Positions 29,246 to 46,921 of a DNA stretch of 63,600 bases are shown one piece after another. How positions within the stretch are numbered: position 1 is the first letter of the stretch; each line of letters begins with the position of its first letter. This DNA comes from Clostridia bacterium (GTDB lineage: Bacteria > Bacillota > Clostridia > Oscillospirales > Acutalibacteraceae). The stretch is from contig JAFVIF010000044.1 in assembly GCA_017474125.1 (NCBI GenBank), positions 1 through 63,600 of the forward strand, given 5' to 3'. The translations under genes were made by a program, and so were the position numbers. A model generated the notes under the pieces. The model did no database searches. It was not told where the DNA came from and worked only from the letters and a program-made list of their open reading frames with translations.

Positions 29246-32200
29246 TTATTCTTCACCGTCACACTTTTTGCGACTGAGCACAAACAGAATTATTATTCCC
29301 AAAAGAACAACTCCTGCAATAACGCTCCAAACAACAACATGACTTGTATCGCCTGTTACAGGTGAATCAAAGGGCTCGTCGTATTCGTTTACAAACTTAA
29401 TTTCAGTCTTCACTTCGTTTTCAACAGAATACTTATCAGAAACAATCAGCTCGCCCTTGCCGTTATCGGTAACGGTAAGCTCTACCTTATAAACGCTTTG
29501 GTCGTATGTCATACCCTCCTCGTTTTCAGAGGTATCCTCCTTAACGGTGTAGGTATAAATACCTGCCTTTTCAATGCTAATGGGAGCAAATGAGAAGTTG
29601 CCGTTTATATCGTTGGTGGCTTCGCCGATTTTACCGCCCTTATCGTCGTAAAGCAGGAAGGTAAATTCCTTATCGGTGATGTCTCTGCCAATAAGCTCCT
29701 TGTTACCCTTTACGGTAAAGGAGGTTTTATCGGTAGTGTAATTGTTAACAACTATAATACCGTTGGCGCTTTCAGCCTCTACCTCTGCCTTAAGAACAGC
29801 TCTGCCGCTTGTATCAACGCCTTCGGTAACGGTAACTGTTACGGCATATTCGTTCTTGTCGTAGGTAATACCGTCAAGTCTGCCGTTAGCGTCTACACCG
29901 TCAGGCAGCTTTTCCTTTACAACAAAGAGGTGTTCGCCTGCTTGGTTAAAGGTTAAGTGCTCGCTGTTTTCAAAGGTGAAGCTCTTGCCCACGTTCTTAA
30001 CCTCAATTAAAGCGTTGCCTACAGCCTTAACTGCACCGCTTGCATCCTTTTCTCCTTTATAAAGGAGGAAGGTAAACATACCGTCGTTAAGGGCTTTGTT
30101 ATAGCTCTTTTCACCGCTGATTTGCGCCTTGATTTCGGCAGGCTTATAAAGGTTATTAAACTGAATATCGGTTTTAACAGCCTTTTGGTCGGTAACCTTG
30201 GTAAATACCTGCTCCGCGGTAAGGTTGCCGTTTGAATCGTCGGTAACGGTAATAAGCACTTCATAGTATGCGGTATCGTATACCATTAAGGGATCGGCAT
30301 TATCGGGAACGGTCTCCTTAACTATAAACTTATAGTCACCTGCCGCACTAAAGGTAAGAGCGGCAACGTTGCTAAAGGTAAACTCGCCGTTTTCGTTATT
30401 CTTCGCGGTGGCAATAACCGTATTAAGGTCGTCTTCCTTATAGAGCTTAAACTCAAAGGCCTTTTCTCCCGTGTACTTGGAAATGCTGTCGCCGTTAAGG
30501 TTCTTTTTGCCGTCAACGGTAACGCTTACGGGTGCAACTCCGTAGGAGTTAACAATTATAAGTCCGCTGCTGTTTTCGGGAGCAACCTCGGCGGTAAGAA
30601 TGCTTCTGCCGCTTGTATCAACACTTTCGGTAACGGTAACCTTTACAACGTGTTCCTTGGTATCATAGGTAACACCGTTATATTTGCCGTTTTGGTCAGC
30701 GCCCTCGGGAACAACCTCTTTAACAACGTAGTAGTAGTCCCCTGCTTTATCGTAGGTAAGGTAGCCTGTATCGGCCTCGTCCTTAAAGGTAAAGGCGTCG
30801 CCTGCGTTGCTTACCTCAAGCACTGCTTCGCCTACGGCATTTACCTTGCCGCTTGCATCGGGCAGCGCCTGATAAAGCTCGAAGGAGAACATACCGTCGG
30901 TAAGAGTCTTATTATAGCTCTTTTCACCCGTAATTTGTGCCGATATGGGAGCAACCTTGAGGGTGTTATTAAAGATAATATTTACTTCATTGGAGGTTTC
31001 ATCGTCAACCCTTATATAGCGTAGGTCGTAAACAAGTGCGCCTGCAAGATTGTCGGTTACGTCAATTTCAACCTCGAAATATGCTTTGTCGTATACCATT
31101 AAGGGGTTGGCGCCTGCAGGAACAAGCTCCTTAACCACAAAGCGATAGCCGCCCACCGTATTAAAGGTAAGCTGAGGAATAAGGCTAAACTCAAACTCGC
31201 CCTTGTCGTTATTCTTTACTATTTGTAAAGGAGTATTAAGGTCATTTGCCGAATAAAGGGCAAAGGAGAAGGCGTTATCTTCAACGTACTTAGAAATGCT
31301 GTCGCCAAAAAGATTCTTTTTGCCTACTATTTTTGCAGATACGGGGGTAACCGAGTAAGCGTTATTAAACTGTACGGTCTGTCCGCTGTAATCAACGCTT
31401 GCCTGAAGCTTACCGAAGCCGTCGTCGGTTACGCTAACCTTAACGGTGTATTCATTCTTATCGTATACAACGCCGTTAAGCTTACCCGATGCATCAATGC
31501 CTGCAGGGTGCTTTTCTCTAACGGTATAGGTATGCTCTCCTACCTTATCATAGCTTAAGTTAAAGCTAAAGTCAGCATTATAATGGTCGTAGGGGGTATT
31601 GTTGTAAACGGTGTCGATAACTGCTCCGTTTTCCAAAAGCTCAAAGGCAAAGGCTCTTGCCTGAAGAACTCTTATGCCGCCTGCAAGGTGCTTTGCACCC
31701 GTAATTACGGCACTTATCGGCTCGGTAACGTAGGTATTTTCAAATACCATAGCCGAAGCGCTCTCACCGTTTAAGGCTATTGCCGAAGTGGCCGAAAGAG
31801 CACCCGTTACGCTGTCGCCCGTTACGGTAACGGTTACGTGGTATTCTTTTGTATCGTAGGTTACACCGTTAAGCTTATTATTAACTGCGTTTTCGGGGAT
31901 AACCTCTTTAACAACGTAGTAGTATACGCCTTCCTTTTGGTAGGAAAGCTTGTCGAAGGTAACAGCTCCGTCTGCATCTGCCTTTGCAGTAAGAAGGGCG
32001 GTAGCGTTTTCATTTACAACAAAGCCGCTTTCGGTTTCGAAAAGTGCAAAGGTAAATTCATCTGCCACTATATTTCTGCCCACAAGGTGCTTAACAGCCG
32101 AAAGGTTGGGAGCAAGCTCAACACTTTCAGGAGTAAAGGTGTTCTCAAACTCGGCGCCCTCTACCTCGGCAACGGCAATTACGTTACCCGCGGAAGCGGT

Positions 32201-35200
32201 AGCAGAAGCGGTATCAACAACACTTCTGTCCTCGTTCATAATCTTTACGCCTATGGAATAGTATCCGTTAACGTCGTCTACGGTTATTTCTACGCAGTAT
32301 TCCTTATTGGTATAGGTAACGTTATCAATGGTTCCCGAATTTTCCTTAAGAACGTAGTAATGAGTGCCTACGTCGGTAAGCTCATCGTAAACAACCGATA
32401 TTCTGGCCTTACCTGCGGCGGCTGTTACGGGAGAAGCCGCTACGGGGGTATTATTTACAATATTATAATCATCATCTGCTTCAAAAAGAGAGAAGCTGAA
32501 GCCTGCGGGGAGGATATTTGCGGTTTGGTTGTATATATTTTTAACAACCTTGTTAATATCAATAACCGCTTCGGCGGCGCCGGTTACGTTGTAGACGTTA
32601 TTGAACTCAACGTTCACGGTGTTGCCGCTTACGGTAGCCTCGGAAACGGAATTAACGCTTTCAATATAAAGCTTTCCGTTACCGTCGTCGGCAACGCTTA
32701 CGTAGAAGCGACCGTGTACGGTATCGTAAATAACACCTGCGGCCACGTTGGCGCTGTCAACCTCTTCTATAACGCGGTAGTAGTAATTGCCAACAGAGGT
32801 ATAAACCTGATTTTTAAGCAAATCAACTGCTACGGTGTTTTCTCCGCCCTTAGAATAGGAAATGGTTACGGGGTCACCGAGGTTAACGTACTTGGTGCCG
32901 TCCCACTGCTGTAAACGGAAGGTAAAGCTACCGTTCCAATCTGCGGCGGCGCCGGTGTTATCGGTAAGATTTTTGCGAATGCTTACCGAAAGGTTTGCAG
33001 GATCGGTTTCCTCTGCTTCATAGGTGTTGGTAAAGCTTATATATGCAGTTTTTCCTGCGTCTACGGTTGCGGTTTTAACCGCCCCGTCAACAGTAAAGCC
33101 GCCGCCAAGACCAATTTCCTCCACCGTTACAACGGCATCCTCGGGAAGGTCCTTAATAGTAACCGATTCACCGTGCTTTAAGGTAACCGTGCCGTTAGAT
33201 TCAACGGTATCTCCCATTCCGTTAGAATACGAAACGGGATATTCGCTGTCGCTTGTGTTAGCGAAGGTAACCTTAAAGGTAAAGCTGTCGTTCAGGTGAG
33301 AGGGTATATCGCTTACTACGGTTTTGCTTATTACAACATCGCCCGTTGCAGGTACGGTGTTTACAAATTCAGCCGAAGCAATGTCAGAGGCGGCTACGGC
33401 AAGGGTAATTTCCTCTAAAGAGGCATCACCGTTAATGCTGTATACCTTGTAATCCTTACCTGCGGTGTTTTCGCTAACCTTAACGTCCTTGCCTATAAGA
33501 GCGCTTCCTACAAGGTAGAAGGCTTCGCCGTGCTTAATGGAAACGTTAAGGGTATTGTTAAAGTCAACTGTCGATTCTGTTCTTACACCCTGAGCATCTT
33601 CCTTAATAAGGGTAAGGCTTGCATTAAGGTCGGCAGAAACGGTAAATTCATATGACTGCTCGCGATCGGTTATGGTAGCATCGGCAATTTTGCTTACCTT
33701 AATACCCTCGTAGGGGTTAAGAACCAATAGGCCGTTGTTACCGAGGAAGGAGTCAATGTGGTAGCCTGTCTGTCCGATTTTACCTGCCTCCGGCTCGTGA
33801 ACGAAGGGCATATCGGAATAACCTATAGTACCTGTAACGTTAGAATCCTTAGGTATTACATAGTCACCAAAATAGTGGTGAACGGTGCCTGCAACAACAT
33901 ACCAGGAGCCGTCCTCTCTACGTGCAATGTCACCCACGTGGGTAAGCACGTGCTCGGAAATCTGCTCATATTCCCAAATGGCCTCTACTGCGCCCGAGCC
34001 GTTTATTCTGTACACAAGATTTCTGTGATAAAGAATATTATTTGCATCATATACGGGAGCGGAGCTGCCTTTATATAATGTTCCGTTTGTATCGGTATAT
34101 ATTGGGGTATCTACATTATAGTAGTAACGCTCGTTTTCTACGCTGGGTGCAAAATACGAAACGGTATTTTTGTTTTCATTATAGCTGTATTCATAATCAG
34201 CACCGCTTATATCATTCCACTGATTGGTGTAGAAAACGTAATTTCCGTCGGAATCCTTAACTAAGGGGTCGGGAGCGGTATTTTCAATATCAAGCAAATC
34301 AATCTTACTGCTGAGTCCTACCTCGAAAAGCAAACGGCTGGGAGCAGTAGCGCCCTTAATGGTAAGGGAGGATGGGTCTAACGGATCGGTTCCGTTAAGC
34401 TTAATATCGTATTCAACAAGGGGAATAAGTGAAGCGGGAAGCTTACCGATTACACGTGTGTCACCCGTTTCGGAAGCATCGGTGGTTTTACTGCCGTCAA
34501 GGGTTGTACGCACAAGAATGGTAGCGTACATCATATCGGTTTTTCTGTGGCCCTCGCCCACTGCATCGTAAAAGCCGTAGGACTTATTGGCAAACACAGC
34601 GGTATTTTTAAATTCGTCGGGTACGGCGCTAAGGGAAGCATCCTCACCGTCCCAGAAGCCAACAAACTTACCGTCCTTATCGGCATACCAGCCTATATAG
34701 TTGCTGTAAACCTCTTGTCCGTTTTCGTCAACGCTGTAATAGAGCTGACCGTGCTGATATGCATCGCTTATAAGCTTGCGTGCAACCGTAACGTCGGTTA
34801 TACCCATACGGGACTGTACCGCCCATACCATGTTGTCGCCGGCCTCGGTGGGATTGGCTTCGGTGCCCATTCCGCCCGAATAAATCATTTTTGCAAGGGT
34901 GGCACCGCTATAAAGAGTAGTGCCGAGTTGAATACCCTTAACAGCCTTAACCTCCATATTTTTGCCGATGTAATCGTCAAATTCAAGGAAGCCGTCGTGG
35001 TTAATGCCTATGGAAGACTCAACCATAGTGGGGTAATAAAGGGACTGAATGATAATCTGCTCAACGATATCCTCAAAGGCATCGGATAAATCGCTTGCGC
35101 TGTTTGCAGGGAAATACCTTGTAACGTAATCCTCACTCCAGCCGCGAGAAGCGTTTACGGGAGCAAGGTAGGTTACGGTTTTATTTTCGGTAGCGTTGTT

Positions 35201-36391
35201 GTTTATATTTACGTTCATGGTCTTGGTTGCACTGTTTTCCAAGGCCTTGAAGGTAGTCCAATAAGCATCGGTCGAGGTATTGTTAGAGGGGTCGAGAAGG
35301 CTTAAAGCGGGCTCCTTGGAGCCAACGTTAAGTCCAAGGGTATAAACAAGGGGCTCTGCCTTATATTTTTCCTCTATTTTATCTCTTGCCCAAGCGGCGG
35401 TTAACTGGGTTAAGAAGGAAATACCGTTACTGCCGTATTCGTCCTCACCGCCGTCACCGGAGTTAGATTCACCAATATTAGAATAATCAGTAGTAGCCGC
35501 AGTAGGACAGCCGTCACTCATAAGTACCATAACGGGAGTACGCTTTGTTCCTGCCTGAACACCATCGGTAACGGTAATATCGGCCACTTCGTTAAACATC
35601 TGCTGAGCCTTATATATACCGTTCTGTGTATAGGTGCCGCCTTCAACACGTTTACTGTTATTTGTGCTGAAAGAAGCGGTTACGCCTTCGGCCTTTGTTC
35701 CGGTCACACCGCTTGCAACCTTAACACCGTAACGGTTACTACCGCTTTGACGCCAGGAAGAAACAAGGTAAACACGGTTATTATTGCCGTCAATACCCTT
35801 TTCCCAACGGCCAAGGGGTAAAATAACGCTGGCGGTAGAGGTAGAGGAATCGCCAAAGGAAGTATTACCGCTATATGCAACAACACCTACGCGGTTATTT
35901 GCGTTAAGGTTTAAAAGCCTTTCAATAGCGGAATTTGCCGAGTTGACCATAGTAACGTAGGGGTCGGTGCCACTGCTTACGTTCATACTGCCCGAAAGGT
36001 CGAGTACAAGAATGGTATCTGTAGGCAGGGTCGAATAGCCCTCTATACTCTTTGAGGAAGCAATAGCAGAAAGGGCTACAAGGAAGTTATTTTCACCAAT
36101 GGAAAGCTTAAAGTCGTTTCCTTCGACCTCATCGGTAGCGGCTATATAGTCCTCAGCCGTTTTAAACACCGATTTATCCGACCAAACGCCACCTGCCCAA
36201 GTGGTGTTGGTGGCATTGGGGCCGAAAAAGGCCTTCCAGTCATTAAGGGTAGCGGGGTCGCTTTCCTTTCTTAAGAAGGCTGTTGCCGCGCTTGCGTTAA
36301 ATACAAAGGACGGTACCATGCTGAAAAGCAACACCGCCGCAAGCAATACGGAAAGCAGCTTTTTAAAACGAAAAACAGGTATTTTTTTCAT
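29246..36391 (-). CDS. Giant vWA and pilin-isopeptide-repeat surface adhesin, sortase-anchored
   Basis: The 2381-residue protein has a signal peptide (about 1-36, cut after ASA). A vWA domain follows at about 124-445, with MIDAS residues D131-x-S133-x-S135 and MSDG at 291-294, then a beta-rich segment to about 1016. Nine FctA/Spy0128-like modules begin near 1129, 1272, 1428, 1562, 1687, 1819, 1958, 2090 and 2225, preceded by a related domain at 1017-1128. Most carry Lys near the start, V-K-E in the middle and F-N-N/F-E-N at the end, the Lys-Glu-Asn triad that forms internal isopeptide bonds. The C-terminus has SPVTG (2343-2347), a membrane helix and RKK, a sortase signal of the (S/N)PxTG kind. 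It resembles a tip adhesin of pili, but no sortase or pilin gene is in the window. GGAGG lies before the ATG. Confidence 0.95.
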   Translation of the reverse strand: MKKIPVFRFKKLLSVLLAAVLLFSMVPSFVFNASAATAFLRKESDPATLNDWKAFFGPNATNTTWAGGVWSDKSVFKTAEDYIAATDEVEGNDFKLSIGENNFLVALSAIASSKSIEGYSTLPTDTILVLDLSGSMNVSSGTDPYVTMVNSANSAIERLLNLNANNRVGVVAYSGNTSFGDSSTSTASVILPLGRWEKGIDGNNNRVYLVSSWRQSGSNRYGVKVASGVTGTKAEGVTASFSTNNSKRVEGGTYTQNGIYKAQQMFNEVADITVTDGVQAGTKRTPVMVLMSDGCPTAATTDYSNIGESNSGDGGEDEYGSNGISFLTQLTAAWARDKIEEKYKAEPLVYTLGLNVGSKEPALSLLDPSNNTSTDAYWTTFKALENSATKTMNVNINNNATENKTVTYLAPVNASRGWSEDYVTRYFPANSASDLSDAFEDIVEQIIIQSLYYPTMVESSIGINHDGFLEFDDYIGKNMEVKAVKGIQLGTTLYSGATLAKMIYSGGMGTEANPTEAGDNMVWAVQSRMGITDVTVARKLISDAYQHGQLYYSVDENGQEVYSNYIGWYADKDGKFVGFWDGEDASLSAVPDEFKNTAVFANKSYGFYDAVGEGHRKTDMMYATILVRTTLDGSKTTDASETGDTRVIGKLPASLIPLVEYDIKLNGTDPLDPSSLTIKGATAPSRLLFEVGLSSKIDLLDIENTAPDPLVKDSDGNYVFYTNQWNDISGADYEYSYNENKNTVSYFAPSVENERYYYNVDTPIYTDTNGTLYKGSSAPVYDANNILYHRNLVYRINGSGAVEAIWEYEQISEHVLTHVGDIARREDGSWYVVAGTVHHYFGDYVIPKDSNVTGTIGYSDMPFVHEPEAGKIGQTGYHIDSFLGNNGLLVLNPYEGIKVSKIADATITDREQSYEFTVSADLNASLTLIKEDAQGVRTESTVDFNNTLNVSIKHGEAFYLVGSALIGKDVKVSENTAGKDYKVYSINGDASLEEITLAVAASDIASAEFVNTVPATGDVVISKTVVSDIPSHLNDSFTFKVTFANTSDSEYPVSYSNGMGDTVESNGTVTLKHGESVTIKDLPEDAVVTVEEIGLGGGFTVDGAVKTATVDAGKTAYISFTNTYEAEETDPANLSVSIRKNLTDNTGAAADWNGSFTFRLQQWDGTKYVNLGDPVTISYSKGGENTVAVDLLKNQVYTSVGNYYYRVIEEVDSANVAAGVIYDTVHGRFYVSVADDGNGKLYIESVNSVSEATVSGNTVNVEFNNVYNVTGAAEAVIDINKVVKNIYNQTANILPAGFSFSLFEADDDYNIVNNTPVAASPVTAAAGKARISVVYDELTDVGTHYYVLKENSGTIDNVTYTNKEYCVEITVDDVNGYYSIGVKIMNEDRSVVDTASATASAGNVIAVAEVEGAEFENTFTPESVELAPNLSAVKHLVGRNIVADEFTFALFETESGFVVNENATALLTAKADADGAVTFDKLSYQKEGVYYYVVKEVIPENAVNNKLNGVTYDTKEYHVTVTVTGDSVTGALSATSAIALNGESASAMVFENTYVTEPISAVITGAKHLAGGIRVLQARAFAFELLENGAVIDTVYNNTPYDHYNADFSFNLSYDKVGEHTYTVREKHPAGIDASGKLNGVVYDKNEYTVKVSVTDDGFGKLQASVDYSGQTVQFNNAYSVTPVSAKIVGKKNLFGDSISKYVEDNAFSFALYSANDLNTPLQIVKNNDKGEFEFSLIPQLTFNTVGGYRFVVKELVPAGANPLMVYDKAYFEVEIDVTDNLAGALVYDLRYIRVDDETSNEVNIIFNNTLKVAPISAQITGEKSYNKTLTDGMFSFELYQALPDASGKVNAVGEAVLEVSNAGDAFTFKDEADTGYLTYDKAGDYYYVVKEVVPEGADQNGKYNGVTYDTKEHVVKVTVTESVDTSGRSILTAEVAPENSSGLIIVNSYGVAPVSVTVDGKKNLNGDSISKYTGEKAFEFKLYKEDDLNTVIATAKNNENGEFTFSNVAALTFSAAGDYKFIVKETVPDNADPLMVYDTAYYEVLITVTDDSNGNLTAEQVFTKVTDQKAVKTDIQFNNLYKPAEIKAQISGEKSYNKALNDGMFTFLLYKGEKDASGAVKAVGNALIEVKNVGKSFTFENSEHLTFNQAGEHLFVVKEKLPDGVDANGRLDGITYDKNEYAVTVTVTEGVDTSGRAVLKAEVEAESANGIIVVNNYTTDKTSFTVKGNKELIGRDITDKEFTFLLYDDKGGKIGEATNDINGNFSFAPISIEKAGIYTYTVKEDTSENEEGMTYDQSVYKVELTVTDNGKGELIVSDKYSVENEVKTEIKFVNEYDEPFDSPVTGDTSHVVVWSVIAGVVLLGIIILFVLSRKKCDGEE
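29720..31333 (-). repeat. Tandem duplication of a two-domain unit inside the surface protein
   Basis: Modules at residues 1687-1957 (30521-31333) and 1958-2224 (29720-30520) repeat as an A-B-A-B pair. A starts GKKNL-x-GDSISKY and contains DDLNT/NDLNT; B starts with SYNK-x-L-x-DGMF after (T/S)GEK. The A and B modules are more like their counterparts than like each other, so a pair was duplicated as one unit of about 0.8 kb. Confidence 0.85.
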
Positions 36392-37294: not shown

Positions 37295-38509
37295 TTACGG
37301 CGACGGCAAGGAAAAGCCGGGTGAAAATCCCTTTTCCTTACCAACAAGGCTGGCGCGCGTTATGGCATTTTCTCCAAAGCGCGAACAAATGCTGCTTAAA
37401 ATTTCTTCTATACCGCAAAGGCGCATTTCCTCCTCCACTTGGCTGAACATATCAAGCTGAACGCTTCCCCGCCCCTCCTTTAAGCGCACTGCTCTGAGCC
37501 CTACGCTTCGGCAGGGCAATTCGCCGTGCTCCCGAAAAAGGGCCATTGCCGCCCTCGCTAAGGTAATTCCCGTTTGTGAGCCGCCGTCAAGCCGCGCCGA
37601 ATACTCCTTAACCGATAAATCGGTGCTTCGTACCGTAAGAGCAACCCCCGTTGCGTACATATTGTAATCTCTAAGCCTTTCACCAAGCTCCTCGGCATAT
37701 AAAAGAAGCTCCCTCCATACCTCTTCCTCCTCCTTTAGGTCGTAGGATAAGGTACGGCTTCGACCGATGCTTTTAGGTCGGTCGGTTGATTTTGGGGTGC
37801 AAACGGGAGAATTATCAAGTCCCATTGCGTTTGCCCTAAGACTGAGCCCGTTTTTACCAAGCATTCTGTATAGCATATTTTCATCACAAAGGGTTATATC
37901 CCCTATTGTAAAAACCCCTTTTCTCGCCAACGACTCGGCGGTGCTTTTACCAACGTAAAGCAAATCGGAGGCAGGCAGAGAATAAATTTTATCCTTAAAA
38001 TTTTCCTTACTTATTATTGTCAGCCCCTCGGGCTTTTTCATATCACTTCCCAGCTTTGCAAAAATCTTGTTAAAGCTGACCCCCACCGAAGCGGTTATGT
38101 TGAGCTCGTTTTTAATATCCCGCATTATTTTTTTGGCTATCTCCTCGCCGCTTCCGAAAAGAAGCCTGCTTCCCGTAACGTCAAGCCAGCATTCATCCAT
38201 ACCAAAGGGCTCCACCATATCGGTATAGCGGTGGTAAATTGCCCTCGCCTTTAAGGAAAATTCCTCGTATTTATCGTAAAGAGGCGGCAGCACGTAAAGG
38301 CCCGCGCATTTTTGCTTCGCCTTCCATATAGGCTCGGCGGTTTTAACCCCAAACCTTTTGGCTATTTCGTTTTTAGCAAGAATAATACCGTGTCGGTTTT
38401 CCACGCTTCCCCCCACTGCAACCGGCTCGGTCATAAGTGTTTGATTATATAAAAGGCTGACCGAAGCAAAAAAATTATTAAGGTCGCAATGAAGTATGGT
38501 TCTTTCCAT
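37295..38509 (-). CDS. dinB: Y-family DNA polymerase IV (DinB)
   Basis: DinB copies past DNA lesions with low fidelity. The 404-residue protein has the palm acidic residues Asp9 (CDLNNFFASV), Asp105 and Glu106 (GMDECWLDVTG), the FF steric-gate position (13-14), a helix-hairpin-helix thumb (SLPASDLLYVGKSTAESL), and a C-terminal clamp-binding motif QLDMF (about 357-361). The start abuts the stop of the upstream sigma-like gene, so it is the third gene of an operon under the LexA/XRE-type double operator at 39303-39338. Co-transcription with two small regulatory-looking genes is not the usual arrangement for dinB. Confidence 0.95.
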   Translation of the reverse strand: MERTILHCDLNNFFASVSLLYNQTLMTEPVAVGGSVENRHGIILAKNEIAKRFGVKTAEPIWKAKQKCAGLYVLPPLYDKYEEFSLKARAIYHRYTDMVEPFGMDECWLDVTGSRLLFGSGEEIAKKIMRDIKNELNITASVGVSFNKIFAKLGSDMKKPEGLTIISKENFKDKIYSLPASDLLYVGKSTAESLARKGVFTIGDITLCDENMLYRMLGKNGLSLRANAMGLDNSPVCTPKSTDRPKSIGRSRTLSYDLKEEEEVWRELLLYAEELGERLRDYNMYATGVALTVRSTDLSVKEYSARLDGGSQTGITLARAAMALFREHGELPCRSVGLRAVRLKEGRGSVQLDMFSQVEEEMRLCGIEEILSSICSRFGENAITRASLVGKEKGFSPGFSLPSP

Positions 38510-38863
38510 TTAATGTGTCACACCCTTTTCCTTTTTTATGGAGGGCCTTAAATTTTCAAGGCCGTTTAAATGTATTCTTTCAACCTGCCGTCGGCTGTAA
38601 TTTAGCATAACGGCGGTTTCCTCTAAGCTTTTTCCGCAAAGGTACTTTTGAGCAAGCACCTCGCTTTCGGTTTTATCGGTAAGGCTTTCAATATCCTCCT
38701 CTATAACGTCTCTTACCCACATAGCCTGCATTAATTTATCCTTATATTTATCCTTCTTATCAGCATTTTTCGCCGACAGCGCAAGATAGCGGTTAATTCT
38801 TGCCTGCTGTAAAGCATACAGCTCCAAATACTCCCTTTTTTCGGTAACAAGGGGATTTATCAT
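38510..38863 (-). CDS. Small sigma-70 region 4-like HTH protein
   Basis: The 117-residue protein has a charged helical N-terminus (about 1-60, with QQARINRYLALSAKNADKKD) and a C-terminal helix-turn-helix like sigma factor region 4 (QKYLCGKSLEETAVMLNYS, then RRQVERIHLNGLENL). Similar short proteins occur in phages and integrative elements as late-gene activators (ArpU/DUF1492-like). No region 2 is present, so it is not a complete sigma factor. Its first four bases overlap the zinc-ribbon gene and its stop touches dinB. A DNA-binding or polymerase-binding accessory role is an inference. Confidence 0.7.
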   Translation of the reverse strand: MINPLVTEKREYLELYALQQARINRYLALSAKNADKKDKYKDKLMQAMWVRDVIEEDIESLTDKTESEVLAQKYLCGKSLEETAVMLNYSRRQVERIHLNGLENLRPSIKKEKGVTH

Positions 38864-39225
38864 AGCATTCCTGCTCCCTTTAAGGCATAATACTGACCGT
38901 AGCTTAAGGTACAGCCGTGAATAAGATTATATCGGTCAACCTCGGCTACCGCTTTATATAACGGACTGTTTTTTCGTTTTTCCTCCTGCTCTTTTTGACG
39001 GGCATACAGCTTTTCGCCCGCGCTTCGGCAGCTATCGGAGCAATAACCTGCACCGGGATGCGGCACACGGCGGCCGCAATAGCTGCAATATTCTCCCTTT
39101 TTCTCGTGAAAATCCATACTGTCGCAATAGGGACAAAGCAACAGCCTTTCGCTACCTAACGGCCTCGGCTCAAAATAAACCTTAGCGTACAAAAATTCCC
39201 TACCACAAGCCGAACAATGATACAA
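38860..39225 (-). CDS. Zinc-ribbon protein, first gene of the dinB operon
   Basis: The 121-residue protein has four paired-cysteine knuckles in its first half: Cys4/Cys7, Cys31/Cys34, Cys47/Cys50 and Cys62/Cys66, enough for two zinc ribbons. A charged helix follows (KLYARQKEQEEKRKNSPLYK) and the C-terminus is DRYNLIHGCTLSYGQYYALK. I do not know a named family; the end recalls small phage-associated proteins. The start is a TTG at 39225, nine bases after a strong GGAGGA (39235-39240); no ATG fits. It overlaps the sigma-like gene by four bases. As the first gene of the operon it is most directly exposed to the double operator. Confidence 0.7.
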   Translation of the reverse strand: MYHCSACGREFLYAKVYFEPRPLGSERLLLCPYCDSMDFHEKKGEYCSYCGRRVPHPGAGYCSDSCRSAGEKLYARQKEQEEKRKNSPLYKAVAEVDRYNLIHGCTLSYGQYYALKGAGML

Positions 39226-39258
39226 AGCTTTTGTTCCTCCTATTTTTTAAAAAAATTC

Positions 39259-39287
39259 TTGACTTAGCTCGGCATCTGTAATATAAT
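39259..39287 (+). promoter_or_regulatory. Sigma-A promoter of the XRE-ImmA pair
   Basis: TTGACT (39259-39264), 17 bases, perfect TATAAT (39282-39287). Its expected start near 39294 lies on a degenerate copy (from 39292) of the 39323 palindrome. It faces the dinB-operon promoter. Confidence 0.82.
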
Positions 39288-39302
39288 GATTTTACGGATT
39301 CC

Positions 39303-39316
39303 CGAACACATGTTCT
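39303..39316. promoter_or_regulatory. LexA-type SOS box
   Basis: CGAACACATGTTCT contains GAAC-N4-GTTC (39304-39315), the Gram-positive LexA box. It lies one base from the -10 of the dinB operon, over its expected start point, and about 10 bases past the XRE start point. Confidence 0.8.
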
Positions 39317-39345
39317 ATTATATTACGGAATTCCGTAATTGTCAA
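39317..39345 (-). promoter_or_regulatory. Consensus sigma-A promoter of the zinc-ribbon/sigma-like/dinB operon
   Basis: On the minus strand perfect TTGACA (39340-39345), 17 bases, perfect TATAAT (39317-39322). The spacer consists almost entirely of a 16-base palindrome. Such a strong promoter would need tight repression. Confidence 0.88.
39323..39338. promoter_or_regulatory. Candidate operator of the XRE repressor
   Basis: TTACGGAATTCCGTAA is a perfect 16-base palindrome lying within the spacer of the dinB-operon promoter. A degenerate relative, TTACGGATTCCCG (39292-39304), overlaps the start of the XRE transcript. Two related sites next to an XRE gene suggest repression and autorepression. 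Confidence 0.65.
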
Positions 39346-39392
39346 GTGCTCAGCGGTATTTTTTGAAAATTTATCGGTTAGGTGGAATGAAA

Positions 39393-39719
39393 ATGGATTC
39401 TGTTTACAGTAGAATCGAAGCCTTATGCAAAAGGGACAAGGTAACGGTTACCGAGCTTTGTCGCGCCTGCGGCATACCCCGTGCAACCCTTTCTGACTAT
39501 AAAATGGGAAGGAGTAAATCTCTTTCGGCCTCTACCCTCTCTAAAATTTCGGCTTACTTTTCGGTAAGCGTTGAATATCTTTTAGAAGGCGAAAGCGCCA
39601 AGGTGAGTGAGGATGAATTAAAGGTTGCCCTTTTCGGCGGTGCCAAGGTTACCGATGCTATGTGGGAAGAAATTAAGCGCTACGCGCAATACATTAAGGA
39701 CAGAGAAAATGGAGCTTAA
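39393..39719 (+). CDS. XRE/ImmR-like repressor
   Basis: The 108-residue protein has an N-terminal Cro/C1 helix-turn-helix (TVTELCRACGIPRATLSDYK, about 18-37) and a C-terminal helix (VTDAMWEEIKRYAQYIK) like ImmR-type repressors. The ATG at 39393 has AGGTGG seven bases upstream; an ATG two codons earlier would leave only one base. It overlaps the ImmA gene by 11 bases. In integrative elements such as ICEBs1 the ImmR repressor is cut by the ImmA protease after DNA damage; the same pair next to a LexA box and dinB suggests the same logic. Target palindrome is inferred. Confidence 0.88.
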   Translation: MDSVYSRIEALCKRDKVTVTELCRACGIPRATLSDYKMGRSKSLSASTLSKISAYFSVSVEYLLEGESAKVSEDELKVALFGGAKVTDAMWEEIKRYAQYIKDRENGA

Positions 39720-40110
39720 GGATTTATATGCCCTTGCCGAAGCCAAGGGTGTACGGATTATGGACTTTTCACTACCCGAAAACAAGGCGGTCACCCTAAA
39801 AATTGCGGAAAACTGTTACATTGGTGTTGACCCTGCCGTTTTCGGTAGAGAATGTGAGGAGCGTATAATAATAGCCCACGAAATGGGGCATATTGCAACC
39901 GGCGGCTTTTACACCGAGGACACCGATGAGGAATACCGAAAAAAGCAGGAATTAAAGGCGGAAAAATGGGCGATGGAGCACTTAGTCCCCAAGACCGCTT
40001 TAAAAAACGCCATTAAAAACGGCTGTCACAGTCTTGAAAGCATGGCGGAGCATTTCTGCGTCAATGAAGAATATATGTCGAAGGTACTGCTTTACTATTT
40101 AGATAATTAA
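39709..40110 (+). CDS. ImmA/IrrE-type metallopeptidase
   Basis: The 133-residue protein has the zinc-protease motif HEMGH at 57-61, preceded by ERIIIA, and a downstream helical region with ELKAEKWAMEHLVP supplying a further possible metal ligand (Glu). ImmA-family proteases cleave their partner XRE repressor to release transcription. The ATG at 39709 overlaps the repressor gene by 11 bases, so both are made together; an open frame further upstream has no ribosome site. It ends at a bidirectional terminator. No integrase, relaxase or excisionase gene is near, so it is not an obvious part of a mobile element. Confidence 0.93.
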   Translation: MELKDLYALAEAKGVRIMDFSLPENKAVTLKIAENCYIGVDPAVFGRECEERIIIAHEMGHIATGGFYTEDTDEEYRKKQELKAEKWAMEHLVPKTALKNAIKNGCHSLESMAEHFCVNEEYMSKVLLYYLDN

Positions 40111-40111
40111 A

Positions 40112-40145
40112 AAATCCCAACGTGCGTTTTAGTACGTTGGGATTT
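40112..40145. terminator. Bidirectional terminator between ImmA and the ABC importer
   Basis: AAATCCCAACGT (40112-40123) pairs with ACGTTGGGATTT (40134-40145), loop of ten bases, A and T tracts on both sides. Confidence 0.9.
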
Positions 40146-46370: not shown

Positions 46371-46921
46371 AGGATTTAGGATTTAGGATTTGGGATTTAG
46401 GGATACATTCCTTTAGCCTTTCTAAAAGCCATGATTATATTCCAATTCCTAAAATCCAAAGCCTTTTCATATTAAGATTTAAGGTATATCTTTACAATTT
46501 TTTAGTTCCTAATTTATTTATAATTGCGCTAATCATTTTACCGATTTCTTCCAACAGTAGCATTACTGTCGCTATGTCCGAATCTGATAAATAACCAAGC
46601 CTTTTGCATATTAATAATTGCGTAGTAATTTCTGCATTGGATCCTCTTGCTATAGCCAAGAAGTTTATATATTCTTTGGTAGATATTCTTGCATATCCTT
46701 CTGCAATATTAGACGGCACAGAAACAGCCGCTCGTCTGATTTGAGGAATCAATCCAAATCTTTCGCAATCCGGAATTTTCAATGTCACACGATATACCTC
46801 TTCTACCATATCCATTGACTTTTGCCATACTTTAAGTTCGGTATAGGGAGTTTTATCCATAATTTTATTACAAGAATTCGGGGTTAGTTCCCTAACCCCT
46901 AATTCCTAAATCCTAAATCCT
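46371..46921 (-). mobile_element. S23/four-helix-bundle element with 33-base terminal inverted repeats
   Basis: The element begins with tandem AGGATTT heptamers at 46371-46403 and ends with their inverse at 46889-46921. The two 33-base arms match perfectly over the outer 18 bases and differ at few later positions. The right arm reaches the first base of the dnaK stop codon and the left arm stops ten bases short of the dnaJ ribosome site, so the insertion fits between the two genes without harming either. It encodes only a four-helix-bundle protein. A third, partial copy of the repeat (about 46450-46461) lies just inside the left end. No transposase is present. Confidence 0.8.
46492..46860 (-). 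CDS. Four-helix-bundle protein (23S rRNA intervening-sequence/S23 family)
   Basis: The 122-residue protein matches the S23 four-helix-bundle family: LKVWQKSMDMVEEVYRVT (9-26), the signature PQIRRAAVSVPSNIAEGYAR (39-58), and REYIN/EYINFLAIARGSNAE in helix three. Such proteins are encoded within intervening sequences of 23S rRNA genes and in short repeat-flanked elements elsewhere, form pentamers, and have no proven function; the diversity-generating retroelement protein Avd shares the fold. The gene is clearly richer in A and T than dnaK and dnaJ, a sign of separate origin. No reverse transcriptase or template repeat is near. Confidence 0.92.
   Translation of the reverse strand: MDKTPYTELKVWQKSMDMVEEVYRVTLKIPDCERFGLIPQIRRAAVSVPSNIAEGYARISTKEYINFLAIARGSNAEITTQLLICKRLGYLSDSDIATVMLLLEEIGKMISAIINKLGTKKL

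Follow-up and report, generated by a model that had tools for sequence, protein, structure and literature searches.

Is this dinB gene part of a dedicated, damage-induced mutagenesis cassette, or has it come under the control of a switch of another origin? The question is raised by five genes on contig JAFVIF010000044.1 of a Clostridia bacterium. The whole contig, here called the window, measures 63.6 kb and belongs to a 2.0-Mb metagenome-assembled genome (MAG, 86% complete). Open reading frame (ORF) positions and Pfam domains agree with the layout proposed in an initial annotation: dinB is the third gene of an operon with genes for a zinc-ribbon protein (Znr) and a sigma-region-4-like protein (Sig4), and this operon diverges from the genes of an XRE repressor and an ImmA-type protease (HEMGH). 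The LexA box that had been claimed was also found, as a LexA-type box in the divergent region (Table 1). The dinB start codon begins at the base directly after the Sig4 stop, Sig4 and Znr overlap by 4 bp, and ImmA and XRE overlap by 11 bp, with the XRE start codon picked from its ribosome site and from relatives. Comparison of related sequences makes it fairly probable, in our judgment, that the locus is a chromosomal, domesticated phage-type control unit (XRE-ImmA facing Znr-Sig4), and that an SOS-controlled dinB was merged onto its promoter in the genus of the window.

When an 84,980-species collection was scanned with XRE alone, 48 loci came up, most of them in metagenome-assembled Clostridia or Oscillospiraceae from the gut. 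The window and G150 brought the set to 50 (the sequence of L052 is that of the G094 copy, L002). Znr occurs at all 50 loci, divergent from XRE (48/48 among the scan loci), and Sig4 at 48 (46/48 among the scan loci), the two exceptions being cut by contig ends; ImmA is present at 38 and dinB at 33. All five genes stand together at 22 loci and 11 more lack only ImmA, so that within this XRE-defined group the proposed gene order is not rare. Sixteen loci have ImmA without dinB, one of which also lacks Sig4 at a contig end, and a single locus, cut by a contig end, has neither. Fourteen of the 17 dinB-less loci extend 0.9-4.2 kb beyond Sig4, enough to show dinB, and three are cut. The ImmA gene was missing genome-wide in 12 of 12 genomes with an ImmA-less locus and was found in four of four controls. 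The idea of a self-contained SOS cassette was therefore abandoned as a general reading: the constant core is XRE facing Znr-Sig4, and it persists both without dinB and without ImmA. On a tree of XRE, Znr and Sig4, dinB linkage needs four changes and ImmA one; the linkage count left out L075, L089 and L099, all three of which are among the 17 dinB-less loci.

Znr matched in eight of 150 sampled genomes of the family, namely six with the unit (dinB being linked in four of these), one with a prophage (L007/L141) and one unrelated (L008). With the XRE profile the six unit-bearing genomes came first (at least 186 bits), followed by G028 at 139.6 bits and then by 82 bits; G028 has no Znr, Sig4 or ImmA within 1.5 kb on either side of its XRE match. 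In an order sample of 394 genomes XRE matched in 15 at E ≤ 1e-25. Four of these are from this family and carry XRE, Znr, Sig4 and dinB together, and the other 11 showed no Znr within short flanks. The query set behind this comparison omitted the Znr of L067 and the DinB proteins of L073 and L095. The Znr profile found the same four genomes strongly and seven weakly. The unit is sparse (6/150 family genomes) and, within this sampling, confined to a single family. Its genes gave dN/dS values of 0.03-0.34 in 11 close pairs, counting unsaturated synonymous sites only. The next gene beyond dinB belongs to 20 families in 29 linked loci, and that on the other side to 26 families in 46 loci; these counts exclude L140 and are possibly inflated by false ORFs. 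The commonest neighbour family, with ORFs picked mechanically, occurs at eight of 49 loci, and the recurrent families look by eye like housekeeping genes.

SOS control appears to go with dinB itself. At 30 of the 33 linked loci a LexA-type box lies within 100 bp upstream of dinB; at the other three (the window, L052 and L140, which form the genus set) the box is in the divergent promoter and dinB is fused to the operon. None of the 17 loci without dinB has a box. A strict box pattern, drawn up with the boxes already known, was found upstream of dinB or in the divergent promoter at 33/33 dinB-linked loci, compared with 10 occurrences in a background of 455,932 bp that included coding DNA. The association with dinB is suggested because, among 15 dinB copies fetched from genomes of dinB-less loci, 11 of the 13 with a readable upstream region have a box. 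Since dinB has its own box at 30 of 33 linked loci and dinB-less loci have none, the family is not an SOS cassette; the core of the unit is probably a domesticated phage-like switch, XRE-ImmA facing Znr-Sig4, beside a separately SOS-controlled dinB. At L053 a promoter matching the consensus at 11/12 positions precedes dinB, and no terminator-like site lies between Sig4 and dinB (such sites were scanned in L053 and the window).

In the genus of the window the two controls meet at one promoter. The gap between Sig4 and dinB is -32, 3 and 22 bp there (match edges) and the separate dinB promoter region is gone, whereas it measures 69-140 bp at 28 other loci, 262 bp at one more and 352 bp at another. 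The palindrome TTAC-N8-GTAA is the probable operator of XRE. With at most one mismatch it occurs 172 times in 49 divergent regions, compared with a mean of 9.3 and a maximum of 17 in 50 shuffles, although the motif was read from the same sequences in which it was counted. The usual array comprises four sites spaced about 31, 32 and 41 bp, and at 41 of 49 loci one site falls within the spacer of the Znr promoter. In the three genus genomes the LexA-type box overlaps the place of the third operator, O3, whose right half is kept in the window and L052 and lost in L140; the left half of the O3 remnant is the GTTC of the box. We read these overlaps as a LexA box that has replaced O3 in this genus. 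The family would thus offer a readable case of regulatory rewiring, with separate controls in 30 linked loci and a merged promoter in one genus. The two-layer control of the initial annotation is retained for this genus, where both site types lie on one promoter, but not for the 30 loci with a separate dinB box, at which the controls are neighbours rather than layers.

If the sites act as their positions suggest, XRE would bind the palindromes and keep the strong Znr promoter shut, ImmA would cut XRE upon DNA damage, by analogy with IrrE/PprI-DdrO, CapP-CapH and ImmA-ImmR, and RecA-driven loss of LexA would, as in known SOS systems, free dinB. In most relatives either event could raise dinB, from its own promoter or by read-through from Znr-Sig4, which corresponds to an OR gate. 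In the genus of the window an AND gate is predicted because XRE-type and LexA-type sites share one promoter: Znr, Sig4 and DinB would be fully expressed only once both repressors are gone. This gate logic is deduced from site positions. More tentatively, and with considerable reserve, we propose a chromosomal damage-response circuit in which two unrelated repressors removed by proteolysis, XRE through ImmA and LexA through RecA, would occupy one promoter together and act as an AND gate on an error-prone polymerase and a stand-alone sigma-like activator; the steps towards it (separate promoters, fusion, a box overwriting an operator) would still be readable in living relatives. If so, DinB-type mutagenesis in these gut Clostridia would need two damage signals.

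The XRE gene adjoins an M78 protease gene, as in switches of the ImmR-ImmA and CapH-CapP types, and another trait of these switches, operators at the controlled promoter, is represented by the TTAC-N8-GTAA arrays, as judged from sequence. XRE matches the PADLOC model capH over almost its full length (E 1.1e-7), ImmA matches capP in the protease part only (E 2.4e-5), and RmrA models match both proteins, the best of them with an E value within the range set by capH and capP (1.1e-7 to 2.4e-5). Both histidines and the glutamate of the ImmA HExxH motif are invariant among 38 aligned relatives. A sequence search of solved structures gave no match for ImmA at 0.01 and none for XRE at 1e-4. Single-stranded DNA activates both CapP and PprI according to the accessible part of one source (PMC10904395). 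Given this and the nearness of XRE and ImmA to CapH and CapP, a damage signal for ImmA is plausible by analogy, although ImmA is shorter. In the alignment of 50 XRE relatives an FGG linker motif is present at 38 of 38 ImmA-bearing loci, and its second glycine is replaced at 12 of 12 loci without ImmA. These 12, however, belong to a single clade, and two outgroups that do carry ImmA show FGE (L108) and FGD (L112) at this place. FGG as an ImmA cleavage site was consequently set aside and is retained as a hint only.

Znr and Sig4 are two uncharacterised protein families that travel with the switch. All eight Znr cysteines are invariant in 45 aligned relatives (L059, L067, L075, L076 and L089 were left out of the alignment); the Pfam zinc-ribbon matches are weak and fall under the Pfam cut-offs, and the solved structures matched by sequence are mostly zinc-finger or zinc-ribbon proteins. 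A sequence search of phages gave no match for Znr. Among 47 aligned Sig4 relatives (without L099, which is cut at a contig end), Sigma70_r4 matches 25 at 0.01, Phage_antitermQ touches four and DUF1492 touches one, and Sig4 itself matches one sigma factor of solved structure at 0.0054. Sig4 also matches phrog_36, a phage family annotated 'transcriptional regulator' (E 8.9e-8), and in prophage L141 a protein sharing the C-terminal half of Znr lies a few hundred bases from a phrog_36 protein, the pair preceding HNH, portal, terminase and capsid genes at the early/late junction. Because of this match and this pair, we infer that Znr-Sig4 descends from a phage control region. Judging by the annotation of the phage proteins that it resembles, Sig4, together with Znr, is probably an activator that works on RNA polymerase; that Znr is the partner of Sig4 is a guess from the fixed pairing of the two genes. 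At L108, L109 and L042, in two families, other XRE-ImmA pairs face a Sig4-like protein with no Znr or dinB nearby, and XRE-ImmA facing Sig4 may be a wider pattern.

No mobility gene was seen near the window copy. Neither integrase, relaxase nor phage structural gene, and in particular neither integrase nor relaxase as the initial annotation had remarked, was detected among 20 window proteins scanned with Pfam or recognised by eye in the remaining ORFs, taken from 100 aa upwards. The same 20 Pfam-scanned proteins likewise include no late structural or lysis gene product of the PBSX type. The ten neighbours that were Pfam-scanned comprise chaperones, one tRNA synthetase, two enzymes of surface or capsule type and similar proteins. 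A remnant of an integrative and conjugative element (ICE) was rejected, there being no integrase, relaxase or phage structural gene in this Pfam and by-eye survey and the neighbour families looking housekeeping-like by eye. The suggestion of a domesticated integrative-element remnant thus holds as regards the lack of a mobility gene near the window copy, but the Znr-Sig4 genes resemble the early/late pair of prophage L141 and not an ICE. XRE matches 16 phage records and one plasmid record, all below 60% identity, and no virus carrying the unit was found in the phage and viral sequences searched. Virus cargo was rejected as well, since the best 80 of 211 viral XRE relatives gave no Sig4 or DinB match; one of these 80 has a weak Znr match 3.6 kb away. 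A switch of the CapH-CapP/ImmR-ImmA kind is thus kept on chromosomes under purifying selection, with no mobile element in sight.

The genome of the window has a single IMS-domain protein, and in 48 genomes the number of such proteins is exactly one in 40, two or three in seven and none in one. D9 and D105-E106 are present in all 33 linked DinB copies aligned. In a quick tree of 52 polymerases the 33 linked DinBs all fall in a clade of 40 (SH-aLRT 98), which also holds seven unlinked copies. Two of these seven, L129 and L133, may be linked copies split by assembly: the loci L075 and L099 end at contig ends, as do the dinB genes of their genomes (L129, L133), and may therefore be linked loci. 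In a nine-locus group without linked dinB, eight DinB copies form another lineage. This distribution suggests that the linkage of dinB arose early, was inherited vertically and has disappeared on several occasions. The unlinked dinB copies L125 and L130, of the linked lineage, have no LexA-type box in the 250 bp upstream.

Several observations weigh against the reading of a domesticated phage-type unit with dinB merged onto its promoter. The unit also persists in reduced form, lacking ImmA at 12 loci and lacking dinB at 14 that are long enough to show it. Sig4 matches sigma region 4 only, with no sigma region 2 and no known target. With a single intact XRE operator left in the window, control by XRE may be weaker in this genome. 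The FGG motif is missing from those XRE relatives outside the unit that have ImmA. At 133 aa, ImmA spans no more than the protease part of the 242-position capP model, and the single-stranded-DNA sensing of PprI, which depends on its further domain, may not carry over to so short a protein. No LexA-type box was found in the 500 bp preceding recA in any of the three genus genomes (L224, L225, L226), and two box patterns are rarer genome-wide than their reversed controls (6 vs 47 and 7 vs 23 strand hits). The last two points also speak for a box without function, with XRE alone controlling the operon. We consider this highly improbable: the dyad is kept at the same promoter place in all three genus genomes while O3 decays, 30 other loci keep a box at dinB, and LexA is encoded in the genus, with a similar box at its own gene. 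The window's genome encodes one LexA above the family cut-off, so that the two sequence traits of a LexA regulon, a LexA-type box at the promoter and a genome-encoded LexA, are present, and the lexA promoters of two genus genomes carry GAATAAATGTTC. The six places of GAAYNNRTGTTC are this promoter, lexA, a site about 200 bp before a TetR-like gene and three sites inside ORFs. A LexA regulon defined by pattern was discarded, as there was no enrichment above the reversed control; the argument for a functional box draws on its position and its conservation. As separate observations, the box-less recA of all three genus genomes hints at a reduced SOS regulon, and GAACAAATGTTC, at about 1501 of L101 and about 200 bp before the TetR-like gene in the window's genome, is a possible further LexA target.

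An alternative that we regard as rather unlikely, yet as one to be taken seriously, is a domesticated phage control relic whose job is unrelated to mutagenesis, with XRE-ImmA governing Znr-Sig4, Sig4 driving other genes and dinB an old neighbour that shares the promoter in one genus. The absence of dinB from 14 loci able to show it, at which XRE facing Znr-Sig4 persists, the separate box at 30 of 33 linked loci and the resemblance of Znr-Sig4 to the L141 junction pair would all be expected of such a relic. It accounts less well for a dinB linkage that holds at 33 of 50 loci while the gene beyond differs from locus to locus (with the possible inflation by false ORFs noted above), and for the fusion of the genes in one genus with the box at the shared promoter. 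Improbable, in our estimation, is a defence or toxin-antitoxin-like unit, in which XRE-ImmA, as a switch of the CapH-CapP kind, would silence Znr-Sig4, and loss of XRE would release Znr-Sig4 to interfere with RNA polymerase and stop growth or phage. PADLOC capH and RmrA match XRE, RmrA and capP match ImmA, COG2856/Xre pairs have been proposed as toxin-antitoxin-like (PMC2701414, accessible part), and a strong promoter lies under what looks like tight repression. The matched PADLOC models, however, are regulators and not effectors; at 0.01 none of the PADLOC models matches Znr, Sig4 or DinB, the recurrent neighbours look housekeeping-like by eye, and the linkage of dinB is left unexplained.

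No description of the five-gene set was found among the matches listed in the literature searched, which covered few subscription journals; PMC4243946 and PMC12288472, in their accessible parts, do not describe it either. CapH-CapP, PBSX, ImmR-ImmA, IrrE/DdrO and the SOS mutasome cassettes each have part of its anatomy in common with it. PBSX of Bacillus subtilis has a divergent layout with several Xre operators. TnSmu1 reportedly has a small XRE repressor and an M78 protease of the ImmR-ImmA type. The same two proteins make up ImmR-ImmA of ICEBs1 in the accessible part of PMC8072749, but no integrase or relaxase was found at the window locus within the Pfam and by-eye survey given above. In the CBASS-associated CapH-CapP pair, CapP cuts CapH once activated by single-stranded DNA (PMC10904395, accessible part); the likeness lies in the capH match of XRE, almost full length, and the capP match of ImmA. 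Differences are the size of ImmA, the absence from the five genes of any CBASS or other PADLOC-matched gene besides XRE and ImmA (PADLOC, run on the five proteins, matched no CBASS cyclase or effector), and the genes predicted to be controlled, which here are Znr, Sig4 and, in the genus of the window, dinB with a LexA-type box.

PBSX resembles the locus in having XRE in an operon with a COG2856 gene and a link to DNA damage (PMC2701414), and in a sigma-like control factor, Xpf (PMC10141391), as far as the accessible parts of these sources go. Differences are that PBSX, a defective prophage, brings about lysis, that Xpf contains both sigma region 2 and sigma region 4 where Sig4 matches region 4 only, and that PBSX as described in those parts has no zinc-ribbon partner or dinB. 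In IrrE(PprI)/DdrO of Deinococcus, too, damage leads to the removal of an XRE repressor by an M78 protease, and a LexA system exists alongside, but the accessible part of the source describes a motif-sharing regulon of about 20 genes and no promoter shared by DdrO and LexA (PMC8072749). The SOS mutagenesis cassettes (ImuA-ImuB-DnaE2, UmuDC, YqjW-YqjX/YolD) have an SOS-linked Y-family polymerase in an operon in common with the window (PMC6511836 and PMC12926913, accessible parts), but the five proteins gave no UmuD, YolD, ImuA or DnaE2 match in Pfam and NCBIfam. The XRE-type co-regulator DdiA, from the damage response of Myxococcus, offers a looser parallel; the main text on it does not mention ImmA. 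Two mobile-looking loci in which XRE faces dinB are also alike: L128 has dinB, an M78 protease and zinc-ribbon-like and sigma-like ORFs, and L137 is similar, with no M78 ORF within the 3.7 kb examined. They differ in that dinB faces XRE directly and their DinBs fall in a separate clade. L128 and L137 thus have an analogous gene set made of different proteins, with other palindromes upstream of dinB.

Table 1. Features of the locus in window coordinates, ordered by position
Feature	Position	Strand	Evidence or remark
dinB, Y-family DNA polymerase IV	37295..38509	-	Pfam IMS E 1.9e-40, IMS_C E 8.7e-20
Sig4, stand-alone sigma-region-4-like protein, 117 aa	38510..38863	-	Sigma70_r4 E 1.6e-6
Znr, two four-cysteine zinc ribbons, 121 aa, TTG start	38860..39225	-	Eight invariant Cys; Pfam hits below cut-off
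Promoter of XRE-ImmA, TTGACT-17-TATAAT	39259..39287	+	11/12 consensus
Probable remnant of third XRE operator, O3	39292..39307	-	31 bp after O2; O2-O3 spacing 31-32 bp in relatives
Putative LexA-type box, CGAACACATGTTCT (plus strand)	39303..39316	.	Directly after -10 of Znr promoter; same place in L052, L140
Promoter of Znr-Sig4-dinB, TTGACA-17-TATAAT	39317..39345	-	12/12 consensus
Putative XRE-type operator O2, TTACGGAATTCCGTAA, filling the Znr promoter spacer	39323..39338	.	Spacer operator in 41/49 loci
XRE repressor (predicted), 108 aa	39393..39719	+	HTH_26 E 7.7e-11, HTH_3 E 5e-8
ImmA, M78-family metalloprotease, 133 aa, HEMGH	39709..40110	+	Peptidase_M78 E 2.4e-8
Terminator-like hairpin after ImmA	40112..40145	+	14-pair stem and T-run

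Two further genes of the window were observed at some distance from the unit. Positions 29246-36391 encode a surface-type protein of 2381 aa with repeated domains and, by eye, a sorting-like C-terminal tail, and a gene for a 23S_rRNA_IVP (S23-like) protein lies at 46492-46860, between dnaK and dnaJ.

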